A stretch of DNA of 64,000 bases from Spirochaetae bacterium HGW-Spirochaetae-2 (GTDB lineage: Bacteria > Spirochaetota > Spirochaetia > Sphaerochaetales > Sphaerochaetaceae): the NCBI GenBank assembly GCA_002839355.1, contig PGXW01000001.1:62001-126000 (forward strand), in the 5' to 3' direction. The notes beneath the pieces were generated by a model. It was not told the DNA's origin and made no database searches. It saw nothing but the letters and a program-made list of their open reading frames with translations. Shown here one piece after another: positions 13,709 to 28,122 of the stretch. The stretch's first letter is position 1; each line of letters starts with the position of its first letter. The position numbers and the translations under genes were made by a program.

Positions 13709-14962
13709 TTAACCCTCGTCCTTGGTAATATCCTTCGGACGTAGAATCAGATTCAACACAACACCGAAAATCGCTGCGAGGCCAAGTCCGGAAAGATTGA
13801 TGTTTCCAAACTGGAATGTCGCCCCGCCCAATCCCAAGACCAACATCGAAGCACTGATGATAAGTAGTTTCGGATTCGAAAGGTTCACCTTCGCATCGAC
13901 CATGTTCTTGATACCGATCGAGCTGATCATACCGAACAGGAGGATGGAAATCCCACCAATGACCGGTCCTGGAATGGTTCCGATCAAAGCGGTGAATTTG
14001 GGGATCAACGAAAGTACGATCGCAAATACAGCTGCGATACGCATGATCAGTGGGTTGTAAGCACCGGTGAGCGCCACGGCCCCGGTATTCTCCGAATAGG
14101 TGGTGTTGGCAGGTCCACCGATCAAGGCGGAGAAGCTTGTCGCCAATCCATCTCCAATCAACGTCCGGTGAATACCCGGATCCTTGATGAAGTCTTTTCC
14201 GACAACATTCCCTATCGCCAGGACATCACCGAAGTGTTCCACCATGGTGACGATTGCTATCGGTACCATGATCGTGATCGCTCCTACGGAGAATTTCGGC
14301 AAGGTGAACTTCGGTATTCCGATCCAAGCAGCGTTGCCCACTGCAGTGAAATCGATGATACCGATTATGATGGATAGGACATATCCGGCGACCAATGCAA
14401 GCAGAACCGGTAGGTTCGATGCGAATTTCCATCCGAATTTCGGAAATCCGATTTTCACGAAAATACCGACAGCAAACGTAAACAGCGCGACGAGCCAACA
14501 TCCGTTGGTGCCGATTGCCTGTGCGATGCCCGGGGAGTTGGTCCCATTGGCATTCTGTATGGCAACCGGAGCGAGTATCAACCCGATCATGATGATCATT
14601 GGACCGGTGACATGCGGGGGAAGGATCTTATGCAAGTTCTCATATTTCACGAACTTGAATATGATCGCCACGATGATATAGAGAAATCCCGCCACTACGA
14701 TACCGCCGAGCGCATAGGGCAAGCCTTCGCTCGCTCCAACCGCAACCAAGCCAGGTATGAAGGCAAAGGAACTTCCCAAGAACACGGGGACCTTGAATTT
14801 GGTGATCACATGGAACAGCAAGGTTCCGACACCTGCCGCAAACAATGTAACACCAATGTCCAGCCCAGTTAGGATTGGGACCAATACGGTAGCACCGAAC
14901 ATGACGAACGTATGCTGCAGTCCCAATACGACGGTTTTTCCGTCCAAGTCTTTCCTTGTCAC
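13709..14962 (-). CDS. NCS2 family nucleobase permease, uracil-type signature
   Basis: 417 residues from the GTG at 14962, chosen because GAGGAGG precedes it by five bases and the conserved start (GLQHTFVMFGATVLVP) follows. About 12-14 membrane segments are expected for this nucleobase:cation symporter family. The substrate-site acids are visible: Glu in TMVEHFGD (equivalent to UraA Glu241) and Glu in GPANTTYSENTGAVALTG (equivalent to UraA Glu290). Xanthine-specific members usually carry Gln at the second position, so uracil or a related ring is more likely than xanthine. It is the last gene of the catabolic cluster, 118 bases after the molybdenum subunit gene. Confidence 0.85.
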   Translation of the reverse strand: MTRKDLDGKTVVLGLQHTFVMFGATVLVPILTGLDIGVTLFAAGVGTLLFHVITKFKVPVFLGSSFAFIPGLVAVGASEGLPYALGGIVVAGFLYIIVAIIFKFVKYENLHKILPPHVTGPMIIMIGLILAPVAIQNANGTNSPGIAQAIGTNGCWLVALFTFAVGIFVKIGFPKFGWKFASNLPVLLALVAGYVLSIIIGIIDFTAVGNAAWIGIPKFTLPKFSVGAITIMVPIAIVTMVEHFGDVLAIGNVVGKDFIKDPGIHRTLIGDGLATSFSALIGGPANTTYSENTGAVALTGAYNPLIMRIAAVFAIVLSLIPKFTALIGTIPGPVIGGISILLFGMISSIGIKNMVDAKVNLSNPKLLIISASMLVLGLGGATFQFGNINLSGLGLAAIFGVVLNLILRPKDITKDEG

Positions 14963-15080
14963 ACTAACCTCCTCTTTTCGTTTCCACGAATAGTCGGGGT
15001 CCGGGTCGCCTTCTCTCTTGATGGTTCCCGATACCCAAATGGTAATCCAACTCTTTCGATTGTCTTCTCCTTTCCTCCTT

Positions 15081-17537
15081 TTATGGTGAGATAGCCGAAT
15101 CGGGCGTATGGATGCGTGCTGCGGGATCCGAACGACACGAACCTGCGGGGGTCTTGGTAATCCAATTGTCGATCGGATGATTATCGTGCATCGCCCTCCA
15201 TACATCCTCGAAACGAATAGGCATATGGGCCAGATCGGCATCCACTGCCGATTGTATCGCATTTCCAAGAGCCGGGGCTACTGAAATCATCGGATGCTCA
15301 GCCACACCGCGTGCTCCATAGGGACCGTCGATCTGGGAATTCTCGACTACAATCGTCTCTATTTCCATCGGCAGATCCCTTGCGGTCGGAATCTTGTTGT
15401 CGGTGAACGAGGGATTGAGCAGATGTCCGGCATCGTCGTAAATATATCCTTCGCACGTTGCTGTTCCCAGTCCCTGAATCATGCCTCCGACGATTTGTCC
15501 ACGAAGCAACGCAGGATTGACGACTTTTCCGACATCGAATGCCGAGGCGACTTTCCGTACCACATATTCTCCCGTGACCGGATCCACTTCACAAATGATT
15601 CCGTGGGCACCGAAAGTCCAATCCAAAGCCGGTTTTCCCTGTCCGGTCTGTTTGTCCAAATTGGAAAGCCCTTGGGCAATATAACTGCCGACTCCTATCA
15701 ACGGGCCACCGATTCCCTTGCCATCGGGATATGCATATCCGATGGCGATGCTTTTCCAAGGGATGCAGTTCTCGGTGTCATGCCTGACATAGACATTCTC
15801 ACCGTCATGGGCCAAATCTTCCACACACGCTTTCAGAACGTGGGAAGCAACCGCATATCCTTTTCGAAGCAAGTCCTCGCAAGCAAGGATACAGGCGTTG
15901 CCGGACATGATGAGCCCTTTCGACGCTACGGTCTGCCAATCGTACGGGTCGCTCTCGGTGTCCTTATCCACCATGACATGAACGTTTGCGATGTCAAACC
16001 CGAGTCGCTCGGCCACAATTTGTGCCAAAGCTGTGGTAGACCCCTGCCCTATCTCGGTCAAACCGATATTCACGGTGACCGAACCATCGCTATTCATCTT
16101 GATGACAGCAGCGGTAGCGGTATTCGAAGGCATGGCCGGTGCCTTTTGCAGCAATGCGATACCTTTTCCAATCTTCCGGCCACTCGCCAGTTCCCGTTTC
16201 TTTTCAGCCGCAGTCAACTTCCCATACCCGATGGAGCGGGCCACTGCTTCCATGCAAGCAACGACATCACCCGTATGGCTGGTGATCTTTTCTCCGGTGA
16301 GTGTAATGGAGCCAGGGTGCAATGCGTTCCTTCTTCTGAATTCGAGTGGATCCATCCCGATGGTTCTCGCAACCAGTTCCATATGCCGTTCGATACCCCA
16401 GTGGAACTCGACATGACCGAATCCCCTGTATGCGGTGCCGTACGGCTTGTTCGTGTACACGGTATAGGCATCTACCCATGCATTCGGAATCTCGTATGGG
16501 CCCGAGGCACTGTATCCCGAGGCACGGGTCACGTTGACCGCATAATCGGCATACGCTCCCGCATCCCAGAACATTTCCATTTTTTGGGCGATGATCTTAC
16601 CATCTTGCGCTACTCCGGTCTTGATGCGATACGTCAAGGCACTCCTGCAGGGGAGCAAGCTGAATTCCTCTTCACGACTCGCCTGCAATTTCACCGGCAA
16701 CCCACCAGCCTGCTTGGAGAGACAAGCGACCAACGGCTCCAAATGGATCCCGGCTTTTCCACCAAATCCTCCACCTACAGCGGGAACGACAACCCTGACA
16801 TTCCCCAATGGGAGGGCAAAGGTGTGGCAGAACAAATTTCGGACGGTAAATGGGGATTGTGCGCTGGACCAGATGGTGACCTTGTCCCTCGCACCCCATC
16901 GGACGATGGCGACGTGCGTTTCCATCGGCACATGCTGGACACTAGGATTGTCGTATTCACGTTCCACCACATAAGCCGCTTCGTTGAAGCCCGCCTCGAC
17001 ATCACCCTTTCTCAATTTCGTCCAATTGGCGATATTCGTCTTGGGAACGGGAGTGAATGCGGCTTCGATGAATTCATAGGAACCCAAATCGGGATGGACA
17101 AGCACCGCATCGGCCTTCAAGGCATCCATATGGTTCAAAACCGGTTGCATCACTTCATATTCGACATTGATGAGATCGACAGCCTTGCGTGCTATTTCCA
17201 GGGAGGTGGCGGCCACGGCAGCGACCGCTTCCCCGTAATGGCGGACCTCACCTTTTGCCAGGATGTTCTTGTCTACGATATACAAGCCGATACGATAATC
17301 GAGATCGTCGCCTGTAAGCACTGCCCTGACCCCTGCCAATGCCTTCGCTTTCGATGTATCGACCTTGACTATCCTTGCCCGTGCATGGGGACTCTTCTTG
17401 ACTTGGGCATACAACATTCCCGGCAGTACCATATCGCTCACATAGGTAGCCGTACCGGTCAACTTCTCGCCCGTATCCTTTCGCAACACACTCTTTCCGA
17501 CATAGGCGAGTGTACTTGGATCATTGTTCTCATACAT
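15081..17537 (-). CDS. xanthine dehydrogenase-family molybdopterin-binding subunit
   Basis: 818 residues from the ATG at 17537, with AAGGAGG 9 bases upstream. Hydroxylates an N-heterocycle or aldehyde at the Mo-cytosine/pterin centre and passes electrons to the iron-sulfur and FAD subunits encoded upstream. Visible motifs are the amino-terminal DxxxKLTGTATYVSD block, VGGGFGGK, AYRGFGHVEFHW, and GARGVAEHP, whose Glu matches the catalytic Glu of the family (usually GVGEP). The exact substrate cannot be told. It overlaps the [2Fe-2S] gene by 8 bases. The carboxy-terminal 30 residues extend beyond the conserved core. No stop-disrupting changes are seen. Confidence 0.9.
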   Translation of the reverse strand: MYENNDPSTLAYVGKSVLRKDTGEKLTGTATYVSDMVLPGMLYAQVKKSPHARARIVKVDTSKAKALAGVRAVLTGDDLDYRIGLYIVDKNILAKGEVRHYGEAVAAVAATSLEIARKAVDLINVEYEVMQPVLNHMDALKADAVLVHPDLGSYEFIEAAFTPVPKTNIANWTKLRKGDVEAGFNEAAYVVEREYDNPSVQHVPMETHVAIVRWGARDKVTIWSSAQSPFTVRNLFCHTFALPLGNVRVVVPAVGGGFGGKAGIHLEPLVACLSKQAGGLPVKLQASREEEFSLLPCRSALTYRIKTGVAQDGKIIAQKMEMFWDAGAYADYAVNVTRASGYSASGPYEIPNAWVDAYTVYTNKPYGTAYRGFGHVEFHWGIERHMELVARTIGMDPLEFRRRNALHPGSITLTGEKITSHTGDVVACMEAVARSIGYGKLTAAEKKRELASGRKIGKGIALLQKAPAMPSNTATAAVIKMNSDGSVTVNIGLTEIGQGSTTALAQIVAERLGFDIANVHVMVDKDTESDPYDWQTVASKGLIMSGNACILACEDLLRKGYAVASHVLKACVEDLAHDGENVYVRHDTENCIPWKSIAIGYAYPDGKGIGGPLIGVGSYIAQGLSNLDKQTGQGKPALDWTFGAHGIICEVDPVTGEYVVRKVASAFDVGKVVNPALLRGQIVGGMIQGLGTATCEGYIYDDAGHLLNPSFTDNKIPTARDLPMEIETIVVENSQIDGPYGARGVAEHPMISVAPALGNAIQSAVDADLAHMPIRFEDVWRAMHDNHPIDNWITKTPAGSCRSDPAARIHTPDSAISP

Positions 17538-18015
17538 GGAGCAATTCCTCCTTCGCTGTGTACCCACCTGTCACATCCAGGACAGCTTCGATAATCTGCT
17601 CATATCCGGTACATCTGCAGAAGTTCCCCTCCAACCCTTCCTGTATCTGGTCGACGGTGGGATGCGGCGTGTGGTGGATCAACTCGCGGGCACTCATGAT
17701 CATGCCGGCTGTACAAAAACCGCATTGGACCGCATGGTGACGGTCGAAGGCCTCCTGCAATGTGCTCAACATGCCTCCGGATGATTCGCCTTCGATCGTC
17801 TCGATCGTCCCCTCATTCGCCTCGACCGCCAATACCATGCAAGAATTGACCGTCTTGCCATTGAAGAAAACGGTACACGCTCCACATTCTCCGGCACCAC
17901 AACCTTCCTTGGTTCCGGTGAGTCCCAAGTCTTCCCGCAAAAATCGCAACAAGGTCCTGTTTTCCGCGACATCCCGCTCATAGGCAATGCCATTAACCGT
18001 TACATTGATCCTCAT
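17530..18015 (-). CDS. xanthine dehydrogenase-family [2Fe-2S] subunit
   Basis: 161 residues from the ATG at 18015. The first cluster uses the plant-type ferredoxin motif CGAGECGACTV plus a downstream Cys (NSCMVL). The second uses CGFCTAGM and CRCTGY. Both clusters are therefore complete. It carries electrons from the molybdenum subunit to the FAD subunit. Its ATG overlaps the stop of the FAD-subunit gene (ATGA, 18012-18015) and its end overlaps the molybdenum-subunit start, giving translational coupling of all three subunits. Confidence 0.93.
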   Translation of the reverse strand: MRINVTVNGIAYERDVAENRTLLRFLREDLGLTGTKEGCGAGECGACTVFFNGKTVNSCMVLAVEANEGTIETIEGESSGGMLSTLQEAFDRHHAVQCGFCTAGMIMSARELIHHTPHPTVDQIQEGLEGNFCRCTGYEQIIEAVLDVTGGYTAKEELLHV

Positions 18016-18830
18016 GCCCGCACCTCCACTAGAAGTCTCCTGGTGAACTCGGATACCATGAAACGCCGGTATTCCTTGGTACACCGGACATCGCTGATAG
18101 GACTGATCAAGGCATCCACAACAGCAATGGCATCGGAAACGGAAATATCCAAGGGCAAATTGCCGGTAGCAACCGGAGTCGGTGCAGCTGAACTGACACC
18201 GATTCGCATACCGTCGCCGACTTGGGCCACGGCAACGCCGATGATTCCCAGATCATGCCCTTGTATCCTTTTCAATTTCCGATACTTCCCCTTCGCTCCC
18301 TTGCTCTGGATCGGTATGGTAATGCCTATAACCATTTCGTCAGGATTCAGGACCGTACGCTTGACACCGGTGAAGAACTGACGTACCGGAACGGTCCGAT
18401 ACGCCTTGGAAGAGGCAATCTCTATGCTCGCATCGAGACACAACAACGCTGGGGCCATGTCGGAACAGGGTGATGCATTGACGATGTTTCCCACGACCGT
18501 CGCCCGGTTCCGTACTTGATAGGAGGCCAAGTCATGTGCACAGGTCTGCAACAACTGATAGGAAGAGGCAATATCGGTATTCTTCAAAATATCATTGATG
18601 GTGACCGCCCAACCGATTCTCAAGCCTTTGGTGTTGTCTGACATGATCGCATGTGCCTCTGGAATCCTCTTGACGTCAACCACAGTATTCGGTTTTACCA
18701 ATCCATTGCGAATATTCACCAACAAGTCGGTGCCGCCAGCCAGTAGTTTGGCACCTGGTCCGGCTGTCTCCAGAAGCGCCAACAAGTCGGTAAGTTCGGT
18801 AGGTGCCGTATACGAGAATCGATGAATCAT
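18012..18830 (-). CDS. xanthine dehydrogenase-family FAD-binding subunit
   Basis: 272 residues. The FAD-binding PCMH motif LAGGTDLLVNIRNG (about 35-48) and the second flavin loop VGNIVNASPCSDMAPALL are present, followed by the CO-dehydrogenase-flavoprotein-type carboxy-terminal domain. Accepts electrons from the [2Fe-2S] subunit and passes them to NAD+ or another acceptor. It starts 12 bases after the DUF2877 gene, behind a GGGGG ribosome site. Confidence 0.92.
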   Translation of the reverse strand: MIHRFSYTAPTELTDLLALLETAGPGAKLLAGGTDLLVNIRNGLVKPNTVVDVKRIPEAHAIMSDNTKGLRIGWAVTINDILKNTDIASSYQLLQTCAHDLASYQVRNRATVVGNIVNASPCSDMAPALLCLDASIEIASSKAYRTVPVRQFFTGVKRTVLNPDEMVIGITIPIQSKGAKGKYRKLKRIQGHDLGIIGVAVAQVGDGMRIGVSSAAPTPVATGNLPLDISVSDAIAVVDALISPISDVRCTKEYRRFMVSEFTRRLLVEVRA

Positions 18831-18842
18831 GATACCCCCTTT

Positions 18843-19781
18843 TTACGCGACATCCATGCGATGGTGGGAAAACCCATAGACCATCCCGAATGCCGCATCT
18901 AAACCTGAACTGTGTCCGATCTCCGATACTGCTGCCAGTGCCCCGAGGTAATCCGTATCGTCAGATCCGGTCGATGCCCATGCGCGGGCCAGTAAGAGAA
19001 GACTGTCCGAGAACAATCCTTCACAAGCGAGGAGCAGGAACATGCGCGAGATAGCAGTTGTGATCCGATTGTCGTCGACCAGCATCGTTTTGATTTCTGC
19101 AACGAGATACTTGTGGAAATGGTTCTGCGCTGATTCCTTGCCTATATGCATGTGCCAGGAGAGGATCAGTCCACAGAGAAAATCGTCTCCGGCTGGTGTG
19201 GAACCGGGACCGAAACCCACCAACGATCGTATCGTTTCGATCGAATCGGGGACAGTTTGTCGTTTGATGCTTGTTGAAAGGTTAGCCAATGTTTGGTGGA
19301 ACCGTTGAAAGAAGGATTGCCCGACGGGTGCGATTCCGACTTGTTGGAAAATTTGTATGACAGTCTCGTGTTTTTTTTGCATGGAATCCAACAATTCCAT
19401 TCGTCTTCGAATGACTGTCGTAGGTACCATGGAGGCTCCGGGAGCTCTCTCTTGCGTGGGGTGGACCCGAGTCGCTCCCAGGAAGGAGACCCATAATCCG
19501 CAATTGAAGAAAAGCCCTTCCTCACGGACCGTTGCGGTAGAACCCGGATACACGCGAGCCGACACTGTTGTATCGAAGCGAATGCCGTTGTCTATCAGCA
19601 CCGCAGCCGGATGGCAAGCCAGCTTTTTCGTGACAATCGAATAGAGCGTTCCATTGGTATCCTGTAGATTGATGGTTGTTGCATATACCGAATGGACAAT
19701 CAACATATCCGGTGAAAGCGGGAAGCGGGACCCGATTCTTTCAGCTGTTCCCAAGCAGGTACTAGACCATCCGGTGTGCAT
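18843..19781 (-). CDS. DUF2877 protein, AllH-like subunit of oxamate/related carbamoyltransferase
   Basis: 312 residues. The signature GFGPGSTPAGDDFLCGLI (about 192-209) is the DUF2877 hallmark. The E. coli member YlbF (AllH) works with FdrA (AllF) and YlbE (AllG) as an oxamate carbamoyltransferase, which releases carbamoyl phosphate from oxalurate in allantoin breakdown. The AllF-AllG homologue is the first gene of this same operon, so a complex is likely; the substrate here may differ. AAGGAGG lies 9 bases before the ATG, within the end of the gntR gene, which it overlaps by 20 bases. Confidence 0.82.
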   Translation of the reverse strand: MHTGWSSTCLGTAERIGSRFPLSPDMLIVHSVYATTINLQDTNGTLYSIVTKKLACHPAAVLIDNGIRFDTTVSARVYPGSTATVREEGLFFNCGLWVSFLGATRVHPTQERAPGASMVPTTVIRRRMELLDSMQKKHETVIQIFQQVGIAPVGQSFFQRFHQTLANLSTSIKRQTVPDSIETIRSLVGFGPGSTPAGDDFLCGLILSWHMHIGKESAQNHFHKYLVAEIKTMLVDDNRITTAISRMFLLLACEGLFSDSLLLLARAWASTGSDDTDYLGALAAVSEIGHSSGLDAAFGMVYGFSHHRMDVA

Positions 19782-20430
19782 GGAACAATGCCTCCTTGAT
19801 GGCCGAATCTACTTTTTCCTTTCCCCACATGATATTGCGGGTAAGGACTTCCGAAGCTTTCTCACAATCCCGCTGCCGCAGGGCAAAGAGCAGTTCGAGG
19901 TGGTCAGCGCAGGTGATTCGCAAACGTTCCTGGTCCGTTATATCCGATAGGCGAACAAAGTGGATCCGCTGGTCTATCTCATGGAGAAGTTGCTTGATCA
20001 CTTTATTCCCCCCCGCATCGGCCAAGGCTTCATGGAACTGTTCGTCGGCTTGTGCGGATTGCGCTGCGATAACGGGCAGTGTCTCGAGAATGGATTCCCA
20101 TTGTATCCGCAACGATTCCAGTACGGTATCATCAATACCGTTTAGGCAGATATTCCTGATTACAGCCAACTCCAATACCAAGCGGGTATCGTACAGCTCG
20201 TTGATTTCCTGGATATCGATCTTGCGGACCGAATATCCCTTGTGTTGCTCTTTGGATATGAGTTTTTCCGAGGCGAGGCTATTGAGCGCCTCGCGCACCG
20301 GAGATCTGCTCACGCCGAATTCCAAGCAGATCTCCTCTTCCGTCAACCGGTGGCCAGGGGGATACGACCAGGTGATGATTCTGGTGGTCAGGGTATTGTA
20401 GATGTCAGAACTACGAGTCTTGGCACTCAT
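19762..20430 (-). CDS. GntR family transcriptional regulator, FCD subfamily
   Basis: 222 residues. The winged helix-turn-helix is at about 10-75 (YPPGHRLTEEEICLEFGVSR then SPVREALNSLASEKL). The helical FCD effector domain follows, with metal/ligand-type residues in ELYDTRLVLE and the HEALADAGGN stretch. FCD regulators usually repress catabolic operons and release DNA when bound to a small acid. Being inside the operon, it probably autoregulates. The perfect TTGTATACAA palindrome in the promoter at 26882-26909 is the obvious candidate operator. Confidence 0.9.
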   Translation of the reverse strand: MSAKTRSSDIYNTLTTRIITWSYPPGHRLTEEEICLEFGVSRSPVREALNSLASEKLISKEQHKGYSVRKIDIQEINELYDTRLVLELAVIRNICLNGIDDTVLESLRIQWESILETLPVIAAQSAQADEQFHEALADAGGNKVIKQLLHEIDQRIHFVRLSDITDQERLRITCADHLELLFALRQRDCEKASEVLTRNIMWGKEKVDSAIKEALFHAHRMV

Positions 20431-20453: not shown

Positions 20454-20840
20454 TCAGTCCTGCTTGAACACGAACACATGCACCGGCTTTCCGGGTCGTT
20501 CGTCCGATTCCTCGACAGTCGCCACCAGACGCATACCTGTTGCAGGCTTTTCCACTTCCAATCTGCCGGAGGCACGCAATCCGTTCTCGAATTGGACAAT
20601 GCCAAAAAGCAAGAACTTCCTGTTGTATCCTTCAGGCAGATTCCACAAACGGGTCCAAGCCAACAATTCGCACGGCCCTTCGAGATCGAATGTCTCCCAA
20701 TGCTTGTCGGTCACCGGATCCCTTCGGGAGTGGCATTCTTTGCAGATCATAGGCGCCGGATAATATACAGTACCACATTTTTCGCATTTGTAGGCTTTGA
20801 TTTTAGGTTCTTTGAAATCGTACATACTGAAATCAATCAT
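20454..20840 (-). CDS. DUF35 zinc-ribbon/OB-fold protein, partner of the adjacent thiolase-like protein
   Basis: 128 residues. The amino-terminal zinc ribbon has CEKCG and CKECH separated by ten residues (about 19-38). An OB-fold with the usual FGIVQFENGLRASGRLE core follows. DUF35 proteins bind thiolase-superfamily enzymes, either as scaffolds channelling acyl-CoA (archaeal acetoacetyl-CoA thiolase/HMG-CoA synthase) or as half of an aldolase (ChsH2 with Ltp2). It lies 11 bases downstream of the thiolase-like gene, which supports such a complex. Confidence 0.87.
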   Translation of the reverse strand: MIDFSMYDFKEPKIKAYKCEKCGTVYYPAPMICKECHSRRDPVTDKHWETFDLEGPCELLAWTRLWNLPEGYNRKFLLFGIVQFENGLRASGRLEVEKPATGMRLVATVEESDERPGKPVHVFVFKQD

Positions 20841-20851
20841 ACCGGTACCCC

Positions 20852-22048
20852 CTAATCCTTTGCGAAGATCATCGCGACGACATTGTTGCCGAATCCCCCG
20901 AAATTAACCGCCATACCATACTTCGGATCGGTCACCTGTCTGCCTAGTTCGGCCTCGCCCCGCAATTGGCGAACCAGTTCCACCGCCTGCGAAGTTCCTG
21001 TAGCACCGACAGGATGACCCTTCGACTTCAATCCGCCCGAGGTATTGATCGGCAACCTGCCGTCTATCGCGGTCTCACCCTTTCGTACAGCCAGAAAACT
21101 TTTGCCCCGTTCGAAAAATCCCACTTCCTCGCTGATAGCCAGTTCCAAGATCGAGAAGGCATCGTGGAGCTCCGCGAACGAAATGTCTTTCGGTGACAGG
21201 CCAGCCATGGCATAGGCCTTCTCGGCGGCGATACGCACGGCTTCGAGCTTCAAGGGGTCCTTCCTGTTGTGTACACAATGGGTATCGGTGGCGCTGGCGA
21301 TACCGGCGATCCTCACCGGTTTCTTGGAGAACAGCTTCGCCTTGGGGGAATCCATGTTGACCAACAGCAGCGCGGCCGCCCCATCGCTGACCGGGCACGT
21401 CGAATACATGCGCAACGGTTCGGCCACATAGGTGTTCACCACATTGGCCTCAGGACCGTCGGCGATTGCCTCGATTGTGCATTCGGCCTGTATGTGGGCA
21501 TATTTGTTCTTTGCTCCGTTGGCATGGTTCTTCACTGCCAGCAACGCCAGATCCCTCTCGGTAAGCCCGTACTTCTCCATGTACATGCGAGTGAACATGC
21601 CCCCGAAACCAGGGAGTGTCAGGCCCATGTCGTATTCGGCTTCCGGATGCAACATGGTTGCGACATACTCTGTTCCGGTCCAGCCTGTCACCTTACGCAT
21701 GACTTCCCCACCGATTACAAGAACAATATCGGCCATGCCGGAAGCGACCGCCATGTACCCAATCTTAATGGCACTGGCCCCGGAGGCGGGTCCGTTCTCG
21801 ACCAGTTCAGCCGGAACCGGTTCCATATCCATCTTGCTGATCACCGACGAGGCGACCGCGCTCTGATGGCAAAACAATCCCGAGGCCATGTTTCCGACTA
21901 TGACCTGGTCGATTTCTTTTCTCCTTTCGAGAAATCCGGCATCTTTCAGGGCATCCGTGGCGGCGTATGCCATGACATCCCCAAGATCATATTGTGAAAG
22001 GTTACCGAATTTCGTATGACCTATTCCGACAACACCTACTCTAGACAT
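20852..22048 (-). CDS. thiolase-superfamily protein without the nucleophilic Cys
   Basis: 398 residues with the SCP2-thiolase layout: amino-terminal RVGVVGIGHTKFG, AELHDAFSILE with its His, the GHPVGATG motif, and the closing NFGGFGNN. Where thiolases have the acyl-accepting Cys (usually CASG), this protein has Pro87 (NGPASGASA), so ordinary thiolysis through an acyl-Cys is unlikely. With its DUF35 neighbour it resembles the Ltp2-ChsH2 type of CoA-linked retro-aldolase; condensation or pure structural roles are alternatives. It begins three bases after the GNAT-like gene, with AGAGG upstream. Confidence 0.83.
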   Translation of the reverse strand: MSRVGVVGIGHTKFGNLSQYDLGDVMAYAATDALKDAGFLERRKEIDQVIVGNMASGLFCHQSAVASSVISKMDMEPVPAELVENGPASGASAIKIGYMAVASGMADIVLVIGGEVMRKVTGWTGTEYVATMLHPEAEYDMGLTLPGFGGMFTRMYMEKYGLTERDLALLAVKNHANGAKNKYAHIQAECTIEAIADGPEANVVNTYVAEPLRMYSTCPVSDGAAALLLVNMDSPKAKLFSKKPVRIAGIASATDTHCVHNRKDPLKLEAVRIAAEKAYAMAGLSPKDISFAELHDAFSILELAISEEVGFFERGKSFLAVRKGETAIDGRLPINTSGGLKSKGHPVGATGTSQAVELVRQLRGEAELGRQVTDPKYGMAVNFGGFGNNVVAMIFAKD

Positions 22049-22051
22049 GGC

Positions 22052-22738
22052 TTACCTCTTGAATCCCGGAATCTGCGGATACTCTCGTGGCATGACCAGT
22101 TTTGCCGATGCCTTGAGGTCTGTATCCGAAACCGGTCTGGTACCCGTACACTTCACATCCCTGACAGCCTCCCACAACGATCGGGTGAGGACGTACGTGG
22201 GGACTCCCCCCAACTCGTGTCGGACTTCCGGGAATTGTGAAGAGCGGTCCTCGAGTTCGTATTCGATCATCCATCGCTTGAATCCGTTCGGACTCTCGGC
22301 GACGATATACACTTCCTCCTCACCGAGGATATCGAGGTGATGCTCCATCTTGGCCGCAAACAGTTGGGCTCCGACCCGAAGTCCCCGTTTGATTGTCAAT
22401 GTATGCAGGCTCATACCCAACTTCGGTGTGACATGCCTACTGGTCACGATACCGGCGATCTCGCCGTCTATCGCACCGACGAGTACGAATTCATTCGCCA
22501 CGCGACGGCGGTACCAACCGAGGATTTCCCCATACATGCGAACCGCGACTATGTCGTAGAAGTCCGCGGGAACCCCGATCAGAGGATAGATCGTTCCGAG
22601 CAATGCTCCGACTTCCTCGCGTTTCGCTTCGCGTACTACCATCTTCTCACCAGATGCCAATGTGATTACTTTCGGTGGATACGGCTTCAGTGGAATCTCA
22701 GGTGGTCTGAGTTTTTGTTCCATTGCATCTATAGCCAT
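22052..22738 (-). CDS. GNAT-like (acyl-CoA N-acyltransferase fold) protein
   Basis: 228 residues from the ATG at 22738, with AAAGGAG 6 bases upstream. The central part reads like a GNAT fold: an amino-terminal strand MVVREAKREEV, a strand-turn FVLVGAIDGEIAGIVTSR, and a helix start after GLRVGAQLFAAKMEHHL in place of the usual R/QxxGxG/A acetyl-CoA loop. The match is structural in flavour and not strong. No known catabolic gene family can be named. It is tightly placed between the cyclase-family gene and the thiolase-like gene. Confidence 0.55.
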   Translation of the reverse strand: MAIDAMEQKLRPPEIPLKPYPPKVITLASGEKMVVREAKREEVGALLGTIYPLIGVPADFYDIVAVRMYGEILGWYRRRVANEFVLVGAIDGEIAGIVTSRHVTPKLGMSLHTLTIKRGLRVGAQLFAAKMEHHLDILGEEEVYIVAESPNGFKRWMIEYELEDRSSQFPEVRHELGGVPTYVLTRSLWEAVRDVKCTGTRPVSDTDLKASAKLVMPREYPQIPGFKR

Positions 22739-22815: not shown

Positions 22816-23685
22816 CTATTTGCGTGCTTCCTCATGAAGCCAGGCATTCCGCGCACCAGCGACATCACCGAATTTGGTCAATTCGGCTTTTGCCTTCTTT
22901 GCCATGAGCTGTTCGTACCTGTCGTCCTCGACATGTGCCACAATCCGGGCAATCGAGGATTCCCCATCGACAAACCGCCAGGGATAGCAACCTATCACGG
23001 CACGTTGGTTCAACAGCAGGTCGATATCGCCTCCCACACATTCGGCATGGATGATTCCATGGTCGAACATCTCTATGTGCATGAGCTGGTACTTGTCGTC
23101 GCTGAAAAACTCTTCCAACGATTTGCCGTACTTCTTGTGGAAGTGCGCATCGCATTCCTTCGCCTGGCGAGGCATCCATTCACGGATCTTCGTATTCATC
23201 GGATGGTCCGCGCTGCCGCAATCCACCCCGATCCATCTGAGCTTCTTCCGTTTCGCCCATTCCGCGAACTCCCTGTCCGGTCCCGGATGTTGGATCATGT
23301 ACTTCACTTCATTGCCTGTAGGCTGGTCCCATCCGTAATGGTGGAACCCGGTATGGATCAACAGGATATCTCCTTCCCGTACCTCGACCCGATCCTCGAC
23401 CATCTTGGATGTATACACATCGTAGTCTGCGCAGACGTCGGACAAATCCACTATGGCTCCGTCATGGACAAGGAAATCCATATCCAGTTGGGCAATGTCT
23501 TTCCCGGGTGTGTAGAAATGGATTTCTCCATCCAAGTGCGTACCGACATGGTTCGAATGTGTCACCACTTGTCCATTCGCTCCATTCGGAGCAAGACGTT
23601 TGAAATATTGCACCTGCAATGGAATGTATGTGGGCCATGGTGGAGTGCCGATTCCCAATGGGATTGTCAAATCGATTACCTTCAT
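22816..23685 (-). CDS. cyclase-family (PF04199-type) metal-dependent hydrolase
   Basis: 289 residues from the ATG at 23685, which has GAGGAGG upstream; the longer frame to 23778 lacks family sequence. The metal-binding motif of the family (HxGTHxDxxxH) is present as HVGTHLDGEIHF (about 46-57), and the start VIDLTIPLGIGTPPWP is typical. Relatives include kynurenine formamidase, isatin hydrolase and other Mn/Zn-dependent enzymes that open cyclic or formyl amides. The gene order suggests it opens the ring produced by the molybdenum hydroxylase. It lies 58 bases after the fused FdrA-YlbE gene. Confidence 0.83.
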   Translation of the reverse strand: MKVIDLTIPLGIGTPPWPTYIPLQVQYFKRLAPNGANGQVVTHSNHVGTHLDGEIHFYTPGKDIAQLDMDFLVHDGAIVDLSDVCADYDVYTSKMVEDRVEVREGDILLIHTGFHHYGWDQPTGNEVKYMIQHPGPDREFAEWAKRKKLRWIGVDCGSADHPMNTKIREWMPRQAKECDAHFHKKYGKSLEEFFSDDKYQLMHIEMFDHGIIHAECVGGDIDLLLNQRAVIGCYPWRFVDGESSIARIVAHVEDDRYEQLMAKKAKAELTKFGDVAGARNAWLHEEARK

Positions 23686-23743: not shown

Positions 23744-26700
23744 TTAAACAAACTCCTTGGCGCAGGCCAAGACCGCATCGCGGAAACAATTCTCAGGTGG
23801 CTTCACCAATCCGGCTCCCACCATACCTACCCCGGGATCCTTATGGGCGATTCCGGTATTGATCACCGGCAACACCCCCGATTCGACAACCAACCGGACA
23901 TCGATCCCGGTCGGGGTACCGCGGAAATCCAATGCCGGAATCCGGTATTCGTTGTGTTCGGCCAGGGTGATTCCATACATGCGTTTCGTGAATGTGATCG
24001 CATCGGCCGGAGACCCTCCCACGAATTTGACGATCGCAGGAGCCGCGGCCATGGCGAATCCACCGATTCCCGAGGTCTCGGTGATGACCGAATCCCCGAT
24101 ATCCGGAGCACTGTCCTCGGCACAGAAGCCGGGAAGATACAATCCGTCGACCATTCCCGCCGGTCCGGTGAACCAACGGTCGGGCAATCCGGAGATCCTG
24201 ATACCGAAATCGGTACCGTTGCGGGCCATGGTCGTGATCATGGTGCTCCCCGGTACTCCCGTGGCAGGATCCAGTACACATTTCGCCGAGGGCATCGACA
24301 GGTTCAAGAAGAAATGGTCGTTCGCATGCATGAAGGAGAGCACGCGGGAAATGGCTTGTGGTTCTTCTCCCAGCATCACCAGATGCGGTGCCAATTCCCG
24401 TATCATGAGCGAGGTCCCGGCCCTGTTGCGATTGTGTCCTTCGTCCCCCATCTGCAACGCTTGCACGATGATTCCCCGCATATCGATCGGACCATGACGC
24501 CCGATGGCCTTGTGCAGTATCGGTGCGAGCTCGTTTGCCATCCAATGCAGTCGGTCCAGCACTTCCTCGGAATAGGCCCCATACCTCAGGACTTTCCCCA
24601 ATCCCTCGTTCAAGGTGGCGAACGCATGGTTGCCGTACGTTTCATTCTGAATGATCCATACCGGCATGCTCGCGGTCATGATCCCGGCCATAGGTCCGAC
24701 CGAGGCATGGTGGTGGCAAGGTTCGAAGTCAATGGTTCCCGAGGCCGCAAGTTCTTCAGCGTCCTGCGGATTGTCCGCCCTGCCTTCATACATGAGTGCT
24801 CCGATAACCGCACCACGCATCGGACCGCACATGCGTTCCCAGGTAACCGGAGGGCCGGCATGGAGCACAAGGTTGTCGTGCATGCCGGGAACCACATCCC
24901 GGGCGATCCCGATTCCCTTGAGTATCGGCTTTCCCTTCAACAAACGCCCAACAGCTTCGGTATTCGCAGCGTCAATATCGAACTTGGTGGATTCGGAAAG
25001 GGCATCCAATGCTTCGATCACTTCGATATCTCCTCCGGCAGGTGGTCGCCATTCGAGATGGACAGACCGAGCACCGCAGGCTTCCAGGTTCCGGGAGAAG
25101 GATTCCAGCCCGAGATTCAAGGCTATGGGACCGTTCGTAAAAAGAGATACGACCTGCGAGGTATCGGGAACCGATACCTTTGTGTCTTTCGGCATGACGT
25201 TGTGTATCGGCTTGTGCGCGACAGGTTTCACCGACTGGTTTTCCGGCATGGTCCACCTATGCTTCTTGACCAGCAGCCGAAGTGCCAGCATGGTCGCCTG
25301 GTGGTTCGACGGCATGACGACAACACCGGCATCCTCGAGGATTTTCCGTTGCCGGTCGTAGCTTTGCGGATCTTGTGCGGTACCGGTAACCGAGGCGATA
25401 ACCGAAAGGTACCCTCCCCGTTTCCGAGCAGCCTCCTTGGCCTTGACCAACGAAGGCACCATCGCTCCAGCGGGATTGTCGTGCGATCCGTAACCGAGTA
25501 CACAATCGACCAGCATGACCGCAATGGTTTCATCCGCAATCTCGGCTTCGATGCGTTCGGTGCGTGTGCTCGGATCTATCATAGGGTGTGGACGACCTAC
25601 CGTGAACACGTCGTCTCCCAAGTCGACTATGGTGTGTGCCACAGATGTGTGTGGATCCTTGGGGACAAAGGTCGGATCGGTATGATTGTTCGACCAGAGG
25701 CCTCCTGTCGGACCATGCAGCGCCAACCAGGCCTCATCGGCCAACGTCCCGCCGGTATAGTAGCCGCGGATATACAGTTGTCCACTTTGCATCCCTTCCA
25801 GTTCCCGGGAAACCAGTGCATCGACTGTTTCATGGTCCACATCGAACGGCCACCTGTCGTGATACTCCCGTGGCGGGACCGGACTACCGGCCAATGTGGC
25901 GGCGATCCTGGCCGTCTCCTCCAAGTCATGTGCCCATTGGATATTCGGCCCCAAGGAAAAATCGCCTTCATGTGCGCCGATAAAATGAACTACCGCGGGC
26001 TTGCCGGTGTTTCGCAGGGTTTCCAATACATCGTCCACCACTTCCTTGGCTGGAGGTTTGGAAACGATCGCGATCACCGAGGTTCCTTCGTCGGCACCCA
26101 TCGCGGCAATTCCCATCCGCATGGTCAATCCACCGACCGCAGGATTTTTCAAATCACGTCCTCCGGTACCGATCGCATGGCTTACCCCGGCACCAAAGCG
26201 GTCGAGCAGACACGCGACCTCTTGCAATCCCGTTCCCGAGGCGGCTACGATGCCAACGCCACCCGTTTGGACAACATTGGCGAAACAAAGCGGTTTGCCT
26301 GCGATCATAGCCGTTCCACAATCGGGCCCCATCATGAGCAGCCCCTTGTCCCATGCGAGTCTTTTCAACGCGATCTCATCTTCCAGGGAAACGTTGTCCG
26401 AGAACAACATGACATGGAGATTGTGCCGCAAGGCTTTCTTCGCCTCGGATGCGGCGTAGATTCCGGGCAAGGAGATGATTGCGATATTGCTTTCCCCATT
26501 GGCCTTGCACGCGTTGCCGATAGTCTTGGGCTGTATGGCGGTCTCACCCGAAGATTCCGGATGATGCTTGTTCTCGAGCAGGGTGAACGCGAAGGATTCG
26601 ATTTCATCCAGATCCTTTTCATTCGGGCAGTCGATGGCGACGAGAAGATCGGTAGGTCCGGCAACAGATATTTCGTTTTTCGGGAACCCCTGGTCGATAA

Positions 26701-26836
26701 GGAGCTGGACATTCATGGGAGTGCCCATGGCGACGGTCGCTGTCTCGACCTCGGCTCTGGCCTGTAAATCCTTGCTCATGAGCATGAGGAACACAGAGTC
26801 GACATACACATCCTTCCGTACCACCACCCTTTTCAT
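23744..26836 (-). CDS. fused FdrA-YlbE (AllF-AllG) carbamoyltransferase protein
   Basis: 1030 residues in one uninterrupted frame. Residues 1-600 match FdrA: MGTPMN near residue 40, FSDNVSLEDEI, KGLLMMGPDCGTAMIAG, GIVAASGTGLQEV, and DLGDDVFTVGRPHPMIDP, which is a succinyl-CoA-synthetase-like layout. Residues from about 610 match YlbE (DUF1116): VLHAGPPVTWERMCGPMRGA, PCHHHASVGPMAGI, NEGLGKVLRYGAY, VINTGIAHKDPGVGMVGAG. In E. coli these are separate genes, and with the DUF2877 protein AllH they make carbamoyl phosphate from oxalurate. The fusion fixes a 1:1 ratio. GGAGG precedes the ATG by 9 bases. It is the first gene of the cluster, downstream of a strong promoter. Confidence 0.92.
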   Translation of the reverse strand: MKRVVVRKDVYVDSVFLMLMSKDLQARAEVETATVAMGTPMNVQLLIDQGFPKNEISVAGPTDLLVAIDCPNEKDLDEIESFAFTLLENKHHPESSGETAIQPKTIGNACKANGESNIAIISLPGIYAASEAKKALRHNLHVMLFSDNVSLEDEIALKRLAWDKGLLMMGPDCGTAMIAGKPLCFANVVQTGGVGIVAASGTGLQEVACLLDRFGAGVSHAIGTGGRDLKNPAVGGLTMRMGIAAMGADEGTSVIAIVSKPPAKEVVDDVLETLRNTGKPAVVHFIGAHEGDFSLGPNIQWAHDLEETARIAATLAGSPVPPREYHDRWPFDVDHETVDALVSRELEGMQSGQLYIRGYYTGGTLADEAWLALHGPTGGLWSNNHTDPTFVPKDPHTSVAHTIVDLGDDVFTVGRPHPMIDPSTRTERIEAEIADETIAVMLVDCVLGYGSHDNPAGAMVPSLVKAKEAARKRGGYLSVIASVTGTAQDPQSYDRQRKILEDAGVVVMPSNHQATMLALRLLVKKHRWTMPENQSVKPVAHKPIHNVMPKDTKVSVPDTSQVVSLFTNGPIALNLGLESFSRNLEACGARSVHLEWRPPAGGDIEVIEALDALSESTKFDIDAANTEAVGRLLKGKPILKGIGIARDVVPGMHDNLVLHAGPPVTWERMCGPMRGAVIGALMYEGRADNPQDAEELAASGTIDFEPCHHHASVGPMAGIMTASMPVWIIQNETYGNHAFATLNEGLGKVLRYGAYSEEVLDRLHWMANELAPILHKAIGRHGPIDMRGIIVQALQMGDEGHNRNRAGTSLMIRELAPHLVMLGEEPQAISRVLSFMHANDHFFLNLSMPSAKCVLDPATGVPGSTMITTMARNGTDFGIRISGLPDRWFTGPAGMVDGLYLPGFCAEDSAPDIGDSVITETSGIGGFAMAAAPAIVKFVGGSPADAITFTKRMYGITLAEHNEYRIPALDFRGTPTGIDVRLVVESGVLPVINTGIAHKDPGVGMVGAGLVKPPENCFRDAVLACAKEFV

Positions 26837-26909: not shown

Positions 26910-27025
26910 GAAAATAATTGTGTCTTTACAATTACCTGAAGAAGTCTTACATGCCGTGTGGTGATACAGATTGGAAATACCTGTTCAATAACGGAAAATT
27001 CGTTCGTTACCGATAGAAATGGTGA

Positions 27026-27054
27026 TTGACATATTTTCCATGGTTGAATACTAT
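27026..27054 (+). promoter_or_regulatory. promoter for the SPFH gene
   Basis: Perfect TTGACA (27026-27031), 17-base spacer, TACTAT (27049-27054). It lies 36 bases before the start. The rest of the 254-base gap upstream is AT-rich and holds only this promoter and the divergent cluster promoter. Confidence 0.65.
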
Positions 27055-27090
27055 CTAATTGATATCATATTGATAGCAAGGAGAAGTTTT

Positions 27091-28122
27091 ATGGAAAATT
27101 CGCAATTGGGTAAGGGCGCCCGATTCCAGTTGGAAGAGCATCAGGCACCTAGTATGAATGGCATGGCCGTACTGCTCGTCAACATCCTGTTGATCCTGGT
27201 GGCTGTTGCCCTGTTCATCCTTTCCATCACCCCTGTCGGATATGGTTTGGGGAGTGCGACAAGGATAGTTTTCATGGTGGTCGGTATCGCCTACTCCTGT
27301 ATACTCGGTCCGGTATTGTTCATCGGCCTGAAAGTGTTGAAGCCGAACGAGGCGTTGGTGCTGACGTTGTTCGGACGGTATTACGGTACGTTGCGTGGTG
27401 AAGGATTCTACTATGTGAACCCGTTTGTCACCGCTGTGAACCCATCGTCGAAACCCGACCAGAACGCGATTGCCGCACAAGAGAAATCGGCGGCCATGGC
27501 AAAATACGGTTCGGTGAACATTACGATTCCAAACAAGAAGATGTCCCTGAAGGCCATGACACTCAACAATGAGAAGCAGAAGGTAAACGATGCGTTGGGC
27601 AATCCCATCATCATAGGGATCGTTGTGATTTGGAAAGTGGTGAATACCGCGAAAGCGGCATTCAATGTCGACAATTATGTCGAATACCTTTCGATACAAT
27701 GCGATAGCGCGTTGCGCAATATCGTGCGATTGTTTCCCTACGATGCGAGCGATGCGGAAGGTGAGAAATCCTTGCGCGGCAGCAGCCAGGAAGTCGCCGA
27801 CCGCTTGAAAGCCGAGATCCAGGGCAAGGCCGATATAGCTGGAATCGAAATCCTTGAGGCTCGCATCACCCACCTCTCCTATGCTCCCGAGATTGCCGCC
27901 GCCATGTTGCAACGTCAACAGGCCTCCGCGATCATCGCCGCCAGACAGATGATAGTAGAGGGTGCTGTGGGTATGGTCGAGATGGCATTGGCCCAGTTGA
28001 GTGCGAACAATGTGGTGAACCTCGACGAGGAACGCAAGGCCGCTATGGTTAGCAATCTGTTGGTCGTGCTCTGTGGCAACAGGGATGCGCAACCGATTGT
28101 AAATAGTGGCTCGATATATTAG
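27091..28122 (+). CDS. SPFH/Band 7 domain membrane protein
   Basis: 343 residues from the ATG at 27091, with AAGGAGAAG upstream. Two hydrophobic segments at about 25-47 and 54-78 anchor the protein. An SPFH domain follows (KPNEALVLTLFGRYYGTLRGEGFYYVNPF, then IWKVVNTAKAAFNVDNYVEYL and ILEARITHLSYAPEIA). A coiled, Ala-rich helical tail rich in Gln follows (AAAMLQRQQASAIIAARQ). SPFH proteins oligomerise into membrane scaffolds that organise lipids or proteases. It lies 15 bases upstream of a small ribbon-helix-helix gene. Confidence 0.88.
   Translation: MENSQLGKGARFQLEEHQAPSMNGMAVLLVNILLILVAVALFILSITPVGYGLGSATRIVFMVVGIAYSCILGPVLFIGLKVLKPNEALVLTLFGRYYGTLRGEGFYYVNPFVTAVNPSSKPDQNAIAAQEKSAAMAKYGSVNITIPNKKMSLKAMTLNNEKQKVNDALGNPIIIGIVVIWKVVNTAKAAFNVDNYVEYLSIQCDSALRNIVRLFPYDASDAEGEKSLRGSSQEVADRLKAEIQGKADIAGIEILEARITHLSYAPEIAAAMLQRQQASAIIAARQMIVEGAVGMVEMALAQLSANNVVNLDEERKAAMVSNLLVVLCGNRDAQPIVNSGSIY

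Follow-up and report, generated by a model that had tools for sequence, protein, structure and literature searches.

Which enzyme is formed when the subunits AllF (FdrA) and AllG (YlbE, DUF1116) are made as a single chain, and which pathway does it serve? The question is raised by one gene in a 64,000-nucleotide stretch of the Spirochaetae bacterium HGW-Spirochaetae-2 genome (contig PGXW01000001.1, positions 62,001 to 126,000), hereafter called the window, in which all coordinates below are given. An initial annotation, made from the letters of the window, had read a full FdrA pattern followed by a full YlbE pattern in a single 1030-residue frame, and this is borne out. The minus strand of 23744-26836 is one uninterrupted open frame of 1030 residues, from an ATG at 26836 that is preceded by GGAGG to a stop at 23744; read on the plus strand, the interval gives a long shadow frame. 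Residues 3-613 match the NCBIfam FdrA model (PRK06091) at 557 bits against a cut-off of 433, with Pfam Ligase_CoA on residues 359-518, and Pfam AllG/DUF1116 (PF06545) lies on residues 702-916 at 330.6 bits against a cut-off of 27. Both halves have solved homologues, E. coli FdrA (3dmy, E = 2e-91) and an AllG-type protein (3clq, E = 3e-133). We propose, tentatively and at a little under an even chance, that the gene encodes the AllF-S-AllG core of an AllFGH-type carbamoyltransferase, S being a short segment of its own, and that this core is completed by AllH and ends oxidative pyrimidine catabolism by phosphorolysis of ureidomalonate. Of this picture, what is established is that the gene is fused, that fusion has recurred, that the set of genes is conserved, that the permease belongs to a uracil-type clade, and that two arrays also contain genes of the reductive pyrimidine pathway.

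The boundary between the halves had been placed at about residue 610. Domain search and a structural model refine this to a disordered linker followed by S, so that the gene divides as follows:

25259..26836, minus strand: AllF (FdrA) part, residues 1-526, with the coenzyme A (CoA)-binding fold of a succinyl-CoA synthetase (SCS) alpha subunit plus Ligase_CoA (PRK06091, Pfam, fold match Z 19.6)
25157..25258, minus strand: linker, residues 527-560, with predicted disorder at 534-552 (AlphaFold predicted local distance difference test, pLDDT, 40-46 in blocks 531-550)
25001..25156, minus strand: roaming segment S, residues about 561-612 (NLGLESF...WRPPAGGD), from profile matches and stand-alone open reading frames (ORFs) at 17 loci
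23744..25000, minus strand: AllG (YlbE/DUF1116) part, residues 613-1030 plus stop (Pfam 330.6 bits; 3clq_A, Z 62.6)

A frameshift or stop between the halves, the doubt raised with the initial annotation, was not found, and an assembly or frameshift artefact is ruled out as the origin of the fusion because intact fused relatives exist in other assemblies. The source genome has one copy of AllG. Residues 520-660 include several ATG, GTG and TTG codons, and only the GTG at residue 606 has GGAGG upstream (about 10 bases); a start there would yield AllG without S, of the length of E. coli YlbE. This GGAGG is part of conserved PAGG codons, and we think that the internal start is due to chance; a second product is possible.

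The third subunit is encoded nearby. AllH (DUF2877, PF11392; 18843-19781, 83.2 bits against a cut-off of 25) lies in the same operon, five genes from the fusion, so that AllF, AllG and AllH homologues all stand above curated cut-offs in a single operon, and the conserved residues of the window AllF and AllG are common to E. coli AllF/AllG and YahF/YahG. The DUF2877 gene is thus where the initial annotation had put it, but the three-part enzyme drawn from it is not a new inference: according to PMC11326118, E. coli AllF, AllG and AllH together form oxamic transcarbamylase, which interconverts oxalurate plus phosphate and oxamate plus carbamoyl phosphate. The three-part nature of the enzyme is therefore already published, and taken by itself the fusion varies a known enzyme only modestly. 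A reaction was not linked to AllFGH until 2024, and the names that databases give it (acyl-CoA synthetase, DUF) continue to mislead. Equating the window copy with the E. coli AllFG enzyme is not supported, as its AllG falls outside the YlbE branch and its operon carries no allantoin gene and no carbamate kinase.

To model the fusion, AlphaFold was given the window protein as a single chain with 42 other rows. The model has a mean pLDDT of 89.7 and a predicted template modelling score (pTM) of 0.83, and its sole long disordered stretch is 534-552. Halves without a fixed arrangement would be expected to give a pTM near 0.5, so a definite packing of F against G is predicted. The G half superposes on 3clq_A with Z 62.6 and a root-mean-square deviation (rmsd) of 1.5 over 415 residues, and the F half on the SCS alpha subunit 2nu8_A with Z 19.6 and rmsd 2.5 over 213 aligned residues, a CoA-binding alpha-type fold. 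A match to 3dmy (Z 37.8), with an unusable rmsd of 19.5, played no part in placing the domains.

Counting as fused only those genes in which one stop-to-stop frame contains both the AllF and AllG cores, we found the fusion in several lineages (loci are numbered L, genomes G). Frame-checked intact fusions are those of the window, L036-L039 (Sphaerochaeta), L043 (Acidobacteria), L055 (Anaerolinea), L117, L118, L122 (=L045) and L126, together with L181 (G710, Bacillota); in a close relative (L042/L116 and L044) the fused gene is split over two contigs, with the break inside the gene. The survey of spirochaetes and Firmicutes proposed with the initial annotation found the fusion to be recurrent. 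AllG occurs in 32 of 392 spirochaete-phylum genomes, of which, by our reading, 6 are fused (one being the cut gene), 22 are split, one (G194) has an apparently broken fusion, and three (G025, G051, G054) do not allow the state to be determined. Among 398 Bacillota genomes, 60 have AllG; three frames longer than 800 residues were listed, and G710 (L181) is the sole true fusion. A DNA scan, for the best 80 of 197 confirmed loci, gave 7 intact fusions and 2 pieces of a cut one. Long open frames over AllG in L015, L016, L124, L131, L086, L099 and L111, and in the Bacillota genomes G488 and G402, are not fusions, as AllF lies in another frame.

On a quick IQ-TREE phylogeny of 138 AllG cores with 13 fused rows, the fused label takes 6 changes, of which at least 5 are imposed by starred branches; none of 500 shuffles gave as few as 6, so the label is clustered, yet not of single origin. 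The Sphaerochaeta fusions form one group, with L122, L043, L055 and L181 apart; the fusion arose several times independently. The window AllG lies outside the E. coli YlbE branch, in another clade, while that of L181 is sister to YlbE (SH-aLRT 100, quick tree). The neighbours of L181 are AllC, carbamate kinase and AllH, with a PucR-like regulator and a class V aminotransferase (named from printed sequences), and fusion has therefore happened in an allantoin-type cluster too. Repeated fusion is good evidence that the F and G chains are in contact in a fixed ratio. The claim of the initial annotation that the subunits touch at equal copy number is supported by the independent recurrence, the mobile segment S and the pTM of 0.83.

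Two side observations concern these surveys. In G194 (L121/L185) the operon is in decay: AllF and AllG do not share a frame, the end of F being read in that of G, XdhA is broken into three, and no GNAT or thiolase-like frame was found. In L114, on a contig labelled Klebsiella pneumoniae (a metagenome-assembled genome, MAG), AllG is sister to a copy from a Lake Baikal betaproteobacterial MAG, and the label is probably wrong.

Segment S, about 50 residues long (fusion residues ~561-612), lies between the flexible linker and the AllG half. In E. coli its profile matches the C-terminal end of FdrA (residues 504-551) at 67 bits and the N-terminal end of YahG (residues 2-50) at 76 bits, two sequences that were also in the profile seed; YlbE and YahF are not matched. 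Most AllG proteins likewise carry S at the head. Among 120 split F/G pairs, which include at least the duplicates L151/L187, L152/L080 and L156/L184 (same genomes fetched twice), 100 have S on G alone, 3 (L049, L182, L183) have it on F alone, and 17 have it on neither. In all 17 of the last group (L040, L041, L056, L079, L082, L133, L151, L157, L163, L165-L168, L170-L172, L187) it forms a small frame of its own, which lies between F and G at 16 loci and follows F in L133. The stand-alone ORFs run to about 56-65 residues from candidate starts, several with a ribosome-binding site. Those of L166 and L167 differ at 5, 1 and 33 first, second and third codon positions; given this third-position excess between close pairs, S behaves as a real gene. 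A Pfam scan of seven stand-alone S ORFs met no family in any, and the NCBIfam FdrA model matches all seven through its tail (positions 503-555, 24-54 bits). The place of S takes 16 parsimony changes on the AllG tree, with rows outside the placement test set to "on G". S marks a likely subunit interface (no whole-complex structure is among the matches found) and, as a small protein, may have escaped database annotation.

The remaining operon genes, downstream of the fusion on the same strand, are listed below.

22816..23685, minus strand: cyclase-family (PF04199) metal-dependent amide hydrolase, proposed ring opener (Pfam; H77, H81, D83 and H87 kept)
22052..22738, minus strand: GNAT-fold protein without a Pfam family (AlphaFold pLDDT 90.3; best GNAT match Z 14.6, rmsd 3.2, 168 aligned)
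20852..22048, minus strand: thiolase-fold protein with Pro in place of the nucleophilic Cys (Pfam; VENGPASG-type motif)
20454..20840, minus strand: zinc-ribbon partner of the thiolase-like protein, ChsH2/DUF35 type (Pfam zf-ChsH2; four Cys in 29/29)
19762..20430, minus strand: GntR/FCD regulator (Pfam)
18843..19781, minus strand: AllH (DUF2877), third subunit of the AllFGH-type complex (Pfam AllH, 83.2 bits)
18012..18830, minus strand: molybdenum hydroxylase FAD subunit (Pfam FAD_binding_5)
17530..18084, minus strand: molybdenum hydroxylase [2Fe-2S] subunit, start unsettled (Pfam Fer2_2, Fer2)
15081..17567, minus strand: molybdenum hydroxylase molybdopterin subunit, start unsettled (NCBIfam, PDB relatives)
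13709..15022, minus strand: NCS2 permease on the UraA/RutG (uracil) side (tree and TTYSEN motif; longest frame from 15268, start unsettled)

Start codons of the operon mostly have a purine-rich Shine-Dalgarno sequence; the listed XdhC, XdhA and NCS2 starts have none and are probably too far upstream. For the cyclase, whose longest frame begins at 23778, the ATG at 23685 was chosen from relatives and a preceding AGGAGG. A Band 7/SPFH gene (27019-28122) starts divergently from the fused gene.

None of the window operon genes is an allantoin gene (including allB-E) or a carbamate kinase, and the same absence of allantoin genes extends widely. We compared 111 AllG/AllF loci, 89 of them at least 10 kb long, a sample biased toward relatives of the window. 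The cyclase is present in 70 of the 89, and these 70 loci also carry XdhA (56), AllH (51), the thiolase-like protein (25), the NCS2 permease (22), a class III CoA-transferase (11) or carbamate kinase (5). Carbamate kinase lies within the cluster at 10 of the 111 loci, 5 of them with the cyclase. Allantoin-type matches of at least 150 bits occur at four of the 111 (L098, L101, L122, L181), and those in L122 are a dihydropyrimidinase and a carbamoylase. By these comparisons, a neighbourhood of cyclase, molybdenum hydroxylase and uracil-type permease recurs across many phyla without allantoin genes. The cyclase metal-ligand positions H77, H81, D83 and H87 are conserved in 96/96 sequences.

The link to pyrimidines comes from the permease and from two arrays. 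On the NCS2 tree, 23 of the 26 permeases encoded at the loci, among them that of the window, group with UraA/RutG (branch 100/100). These 23 carry Glu in the signature motif of transmembrane helix 10 (window motif TTYSENTGAVALTG), as do those of L182-L184, which are outside the tree. The permeases of L048 and L097, yah-type loci without the cyclase, group with XanQ/UacT and carry Gln, and that of L123 is on a long unplaced branch. According to PMC5972032, Gln or Glu at this position governs nucleobase choice. The best model for the window permease is the NCBIfam uracil permease, at 363 bits and under the equivalog cut-off of 477. In G245 (L122, L147), one contig encodes, in order, an amidase, the AllFG fusion, the cyclase, methylmalonate-semialdehyde dehydrogenase, a carbamoylase, PreT, PreA and dihydropyrimidinase, then an aminotransferase, NCS1, GntR, AllH, XdhB, XdhC and XdhA. 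In G256 (L188, L123), dihydropyrimidinase, PreA, PreT and a carbamoylase share a contig with AllH, XdhBCA, AllF, AllG and the cyclase. PreA and dihydropyrimidinase are above cut-offs in both arrays; PreA is above cut-off in three of the 32 AllG-positive spirochaete genomes, and G245 and G256 are two of these.

Ureidomalonate (3-oxo-3-ureidopropionate), given as the product of barbiturate ring opening in PMC3758960, is the next homologue of oxalurate. The complex would most likely run in the phosphorolytic direction, from an N-acylurea acid and phosphate to an acid amide and carbamoyl phosphate. Uracil would be taken up by the UraA-type permease, oxidised to barbiturate by the molybdenum hydroxylase and opened to ureidomalonate by the cyclase-family hydrolase; AllFG with AllH would then yield malonamate and carbamoyl phosphate, from which the genome's carbamate kinase would make ATP. 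The remaining acid would reach the CoA level by way of the GNAT, thiolase-like and zinc-ribbon trio, whose place a class III CoA-transferase and an amidase would take in other genomes. Thiolase-like protein (25) and CoA-transferase (11) never co-occur in the 70 cyclase loci (P = 0.005, uncorrected for kinship), which suggests two solutions to one step. Beyond the window, a broader joint reading is that AllFGH-type complexes have four parts, with S at the F-G contact, and that in most surveyed lineages they complete an oxidative, anaerobic and so far uncharacterised breakdown of uracil and thymine, conserving carbamoyl phosphate from ureidomalonate made by the molybdenum hydroxylase and a cyclase-type barbiturase. 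We consider it plausible, with the balance tilting somewhat against it.

Several points weigh against this pathway. We infer every reaction, substrate, product, activity and step order in the operon. Matches of the molybdenum subunit include no known uracil-oxidising relative, and its PDB neighbours are 4-hydroxybenzoyl-CoA reductase and others. Known barbiturases belong to the AtzD family and not to PF04199 (PMC3758960); a search with the AtzD-family model (PF09663) was uninformative, with matches in 0/32 genomes and controls that matched nowhere either. The trio has no clear role in the scheme, and its thiolase-like protein lacks the nucleophile (27/27). The source genome's carbamate kinase is on another contig, outside the operon, and three of the 32 AllG-positive genomes (G194, G354, G061) have no full-length one; in favour of the scheme, the kinase is above cut-off in 24 of these 32 against 122 of 392 overall, a difference confounded by kinship. 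A recognised NCS2 permease is absent from the examined stretch at 63 of the 89 loci of at least 10 kb. The source genome also has a separate PreA adjoining a UraA-like NCS2 permease (L189, C63), apart from the operon, and a dihydropyrimidinase just under cut-off, so the module need not be its only uracil route.

Other readings of the same genes have to be set against these data. The complex could be a strict oxamic transcarbamylase, with the molybdenum hydroxylase and cyclase making oxalurate from a hydantoin-type ring (e.g., by way of parabanate) for conversion to oxamate and carbamoyl phosphate. All three subunits belong to a superfamily whose one tested member does this, the title of a 1965 paper gives parabanic acid as an inducer of the enzyme, and the alternative CoA-transferase scores best against CoA:oxalate CoA-transferase (389 bits, under the cut-off of 522). 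We nevertheless consider it unlikely, given a permease in the uracil clade, the company of PreT, PreA and dihydropyrimidinase in two lineages, an operon without allB-E and an AllG outside the YlbE branch; for an oxalate route, moreover, oxalyl-CoA decarboxylase is above cut-off in 0/32 AllG-positive genomes. A shade more doubtful is that the operon degrades another N-heterocycle (a purine, a nicotinate-like compound, or a plant or algal base) and that the complex takes the resulting ureide. This would suit the molybdopterin subunit, which scores best on xanthine dehydrogenase (XDH) and 4-hydroxybenzoyl-CoA reductase models with none above cut-off (XdhA, 496.7 bits against 780; other XDH equivalogs are below cut-off too), and the yah-type relatives L048 and L097, which adjoin xanthine-side permeases. 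Those two loci lack the cyclase, however, and cyclase-type loci have uracil-side permeases. The subunit's motif is GGGFGGKA or GGAFGGKA in 57 of 59 matches (the other two are pieces, and a few loci appear twice); in xanthine dehydrogenases, that Lys is followed by Glu.

The arrays of G245 and G256, in which the module stands with PreT, PreA and dihydropyrimidinase, would also fit phosphorolysis of N-carbamoyl-beta-alanine (or N-carbamoyl-beta-aminoisobutyrate) from the ordinary reductive pathway. Both arrays already carry a carbamoylase for that step, however, PreA reaches 200 bits at only 3 of 111 loci, and the steadiest partners, cyclase and molybdenum hydroxylase, would be left without a role; we regard it as improbable. 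That AllF is a true acyl-CoA synthetase in keeping with its database name, and that the fusion converts an acid into its CoA ester, is very improbable indeed. The SCS-alpha-like fold of the AllF half and the CoA-type neighbours (thiolase-like, GNAT, CoA-transferase) would agree with it, but no ATP-grasp family is among the Pfam matches on the fusion at E <= 0.001, which are Ligase_CoA and AllG and nothing else, and purified E. coli AllF-AllG-AllH is a transcarbamylase (PMC11326118).

Three observations concern the partner enzymes themselves. The thiolase-like protein has Pro at the nucleophile site in 27/27 sequences, where Cys is aligned in the PDB thiolases 7yvy and 6esq, and so lacks the nucleophilic Cys of the thiolase N-terminal domain; this Pro subfamily is conserved and mostly adjoins the zinc-ribbon partner and the GNAT-fold protein. 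We considered the latter as a malonyl-CoA decarboxylase, since GNAT-like decarboxylases exist; its fold matches, however, were to ordinary GNAT acyltransferases, and we make no claim. In a member of the window's family, the fused operon is directly preceded (L118:2147-7083) by genes for a NuoF/GltD-like protein and for an [FeFe] hydrogenase that is NADH-dependent (group A6, above cut-off), possibly the electron sink of the molybdenum hydroxylase.

Searches of open-licence PMC literature listed no paper recognisable as describing the AllFG fusion, segment S or this operon. The mobility of S is a new finding, as is the conserved, uracil-linked operon around the window AllFG, and these two are the parts most worth bench work. 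If the proposal is true, many environmental anaerobes would draw ATP and nitrogen from the pyrimidine bases of dead biomass by means of one conserved operon, which would also provide a genetic handle on the oxidative pyrimidine route, genes for which are, to our knowledge, known only from aerobes.

Among known systems, the allFGHK clusters of nitrifiers resemble the window in having allFGH without upstream allantoin genes; they are linked with biuret and triuret genes, and the available part of the source (PMC12625717) names no fusion, cyclase or molybdenum hydroxylase in them. E. coli AllF-AllG-AllH (FdrA, YlbE, YlbF) shares the three subunits, the conserved residues and AllH in the operon. 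It differs in that the window AllF and AllG are fused, AllG is in another branch and S is joined to G rather than F, and in that E. coli has allantoin genes and AllK where the window has the cyclase, molybdenum hydroxylase and uracil-type permease. The same three families make up E. coli YahE-YahF-YahG, in which S heads YahG, as it adjoins G in the window; in contrast to the window, the yah cluster has the carbamate kinase yahI nearby, no cyclase or molybdenum hydroxylase, and a separate AllG branch. The oxidative pyrimidine pathway of Rhodococcus uses uracil/thymine dehydrogenase, barbiturase and ureidomalonase. The intermediates proposed for the window, barbiturate and ureidomalonate, are those of this pathway, but in the window a PF04199 hydrolase would stand in for the AtzD-family barbiturase, and ureidomalonate would be split by a phosphorolytic carbamoyltransferase instead of a hydrolase.

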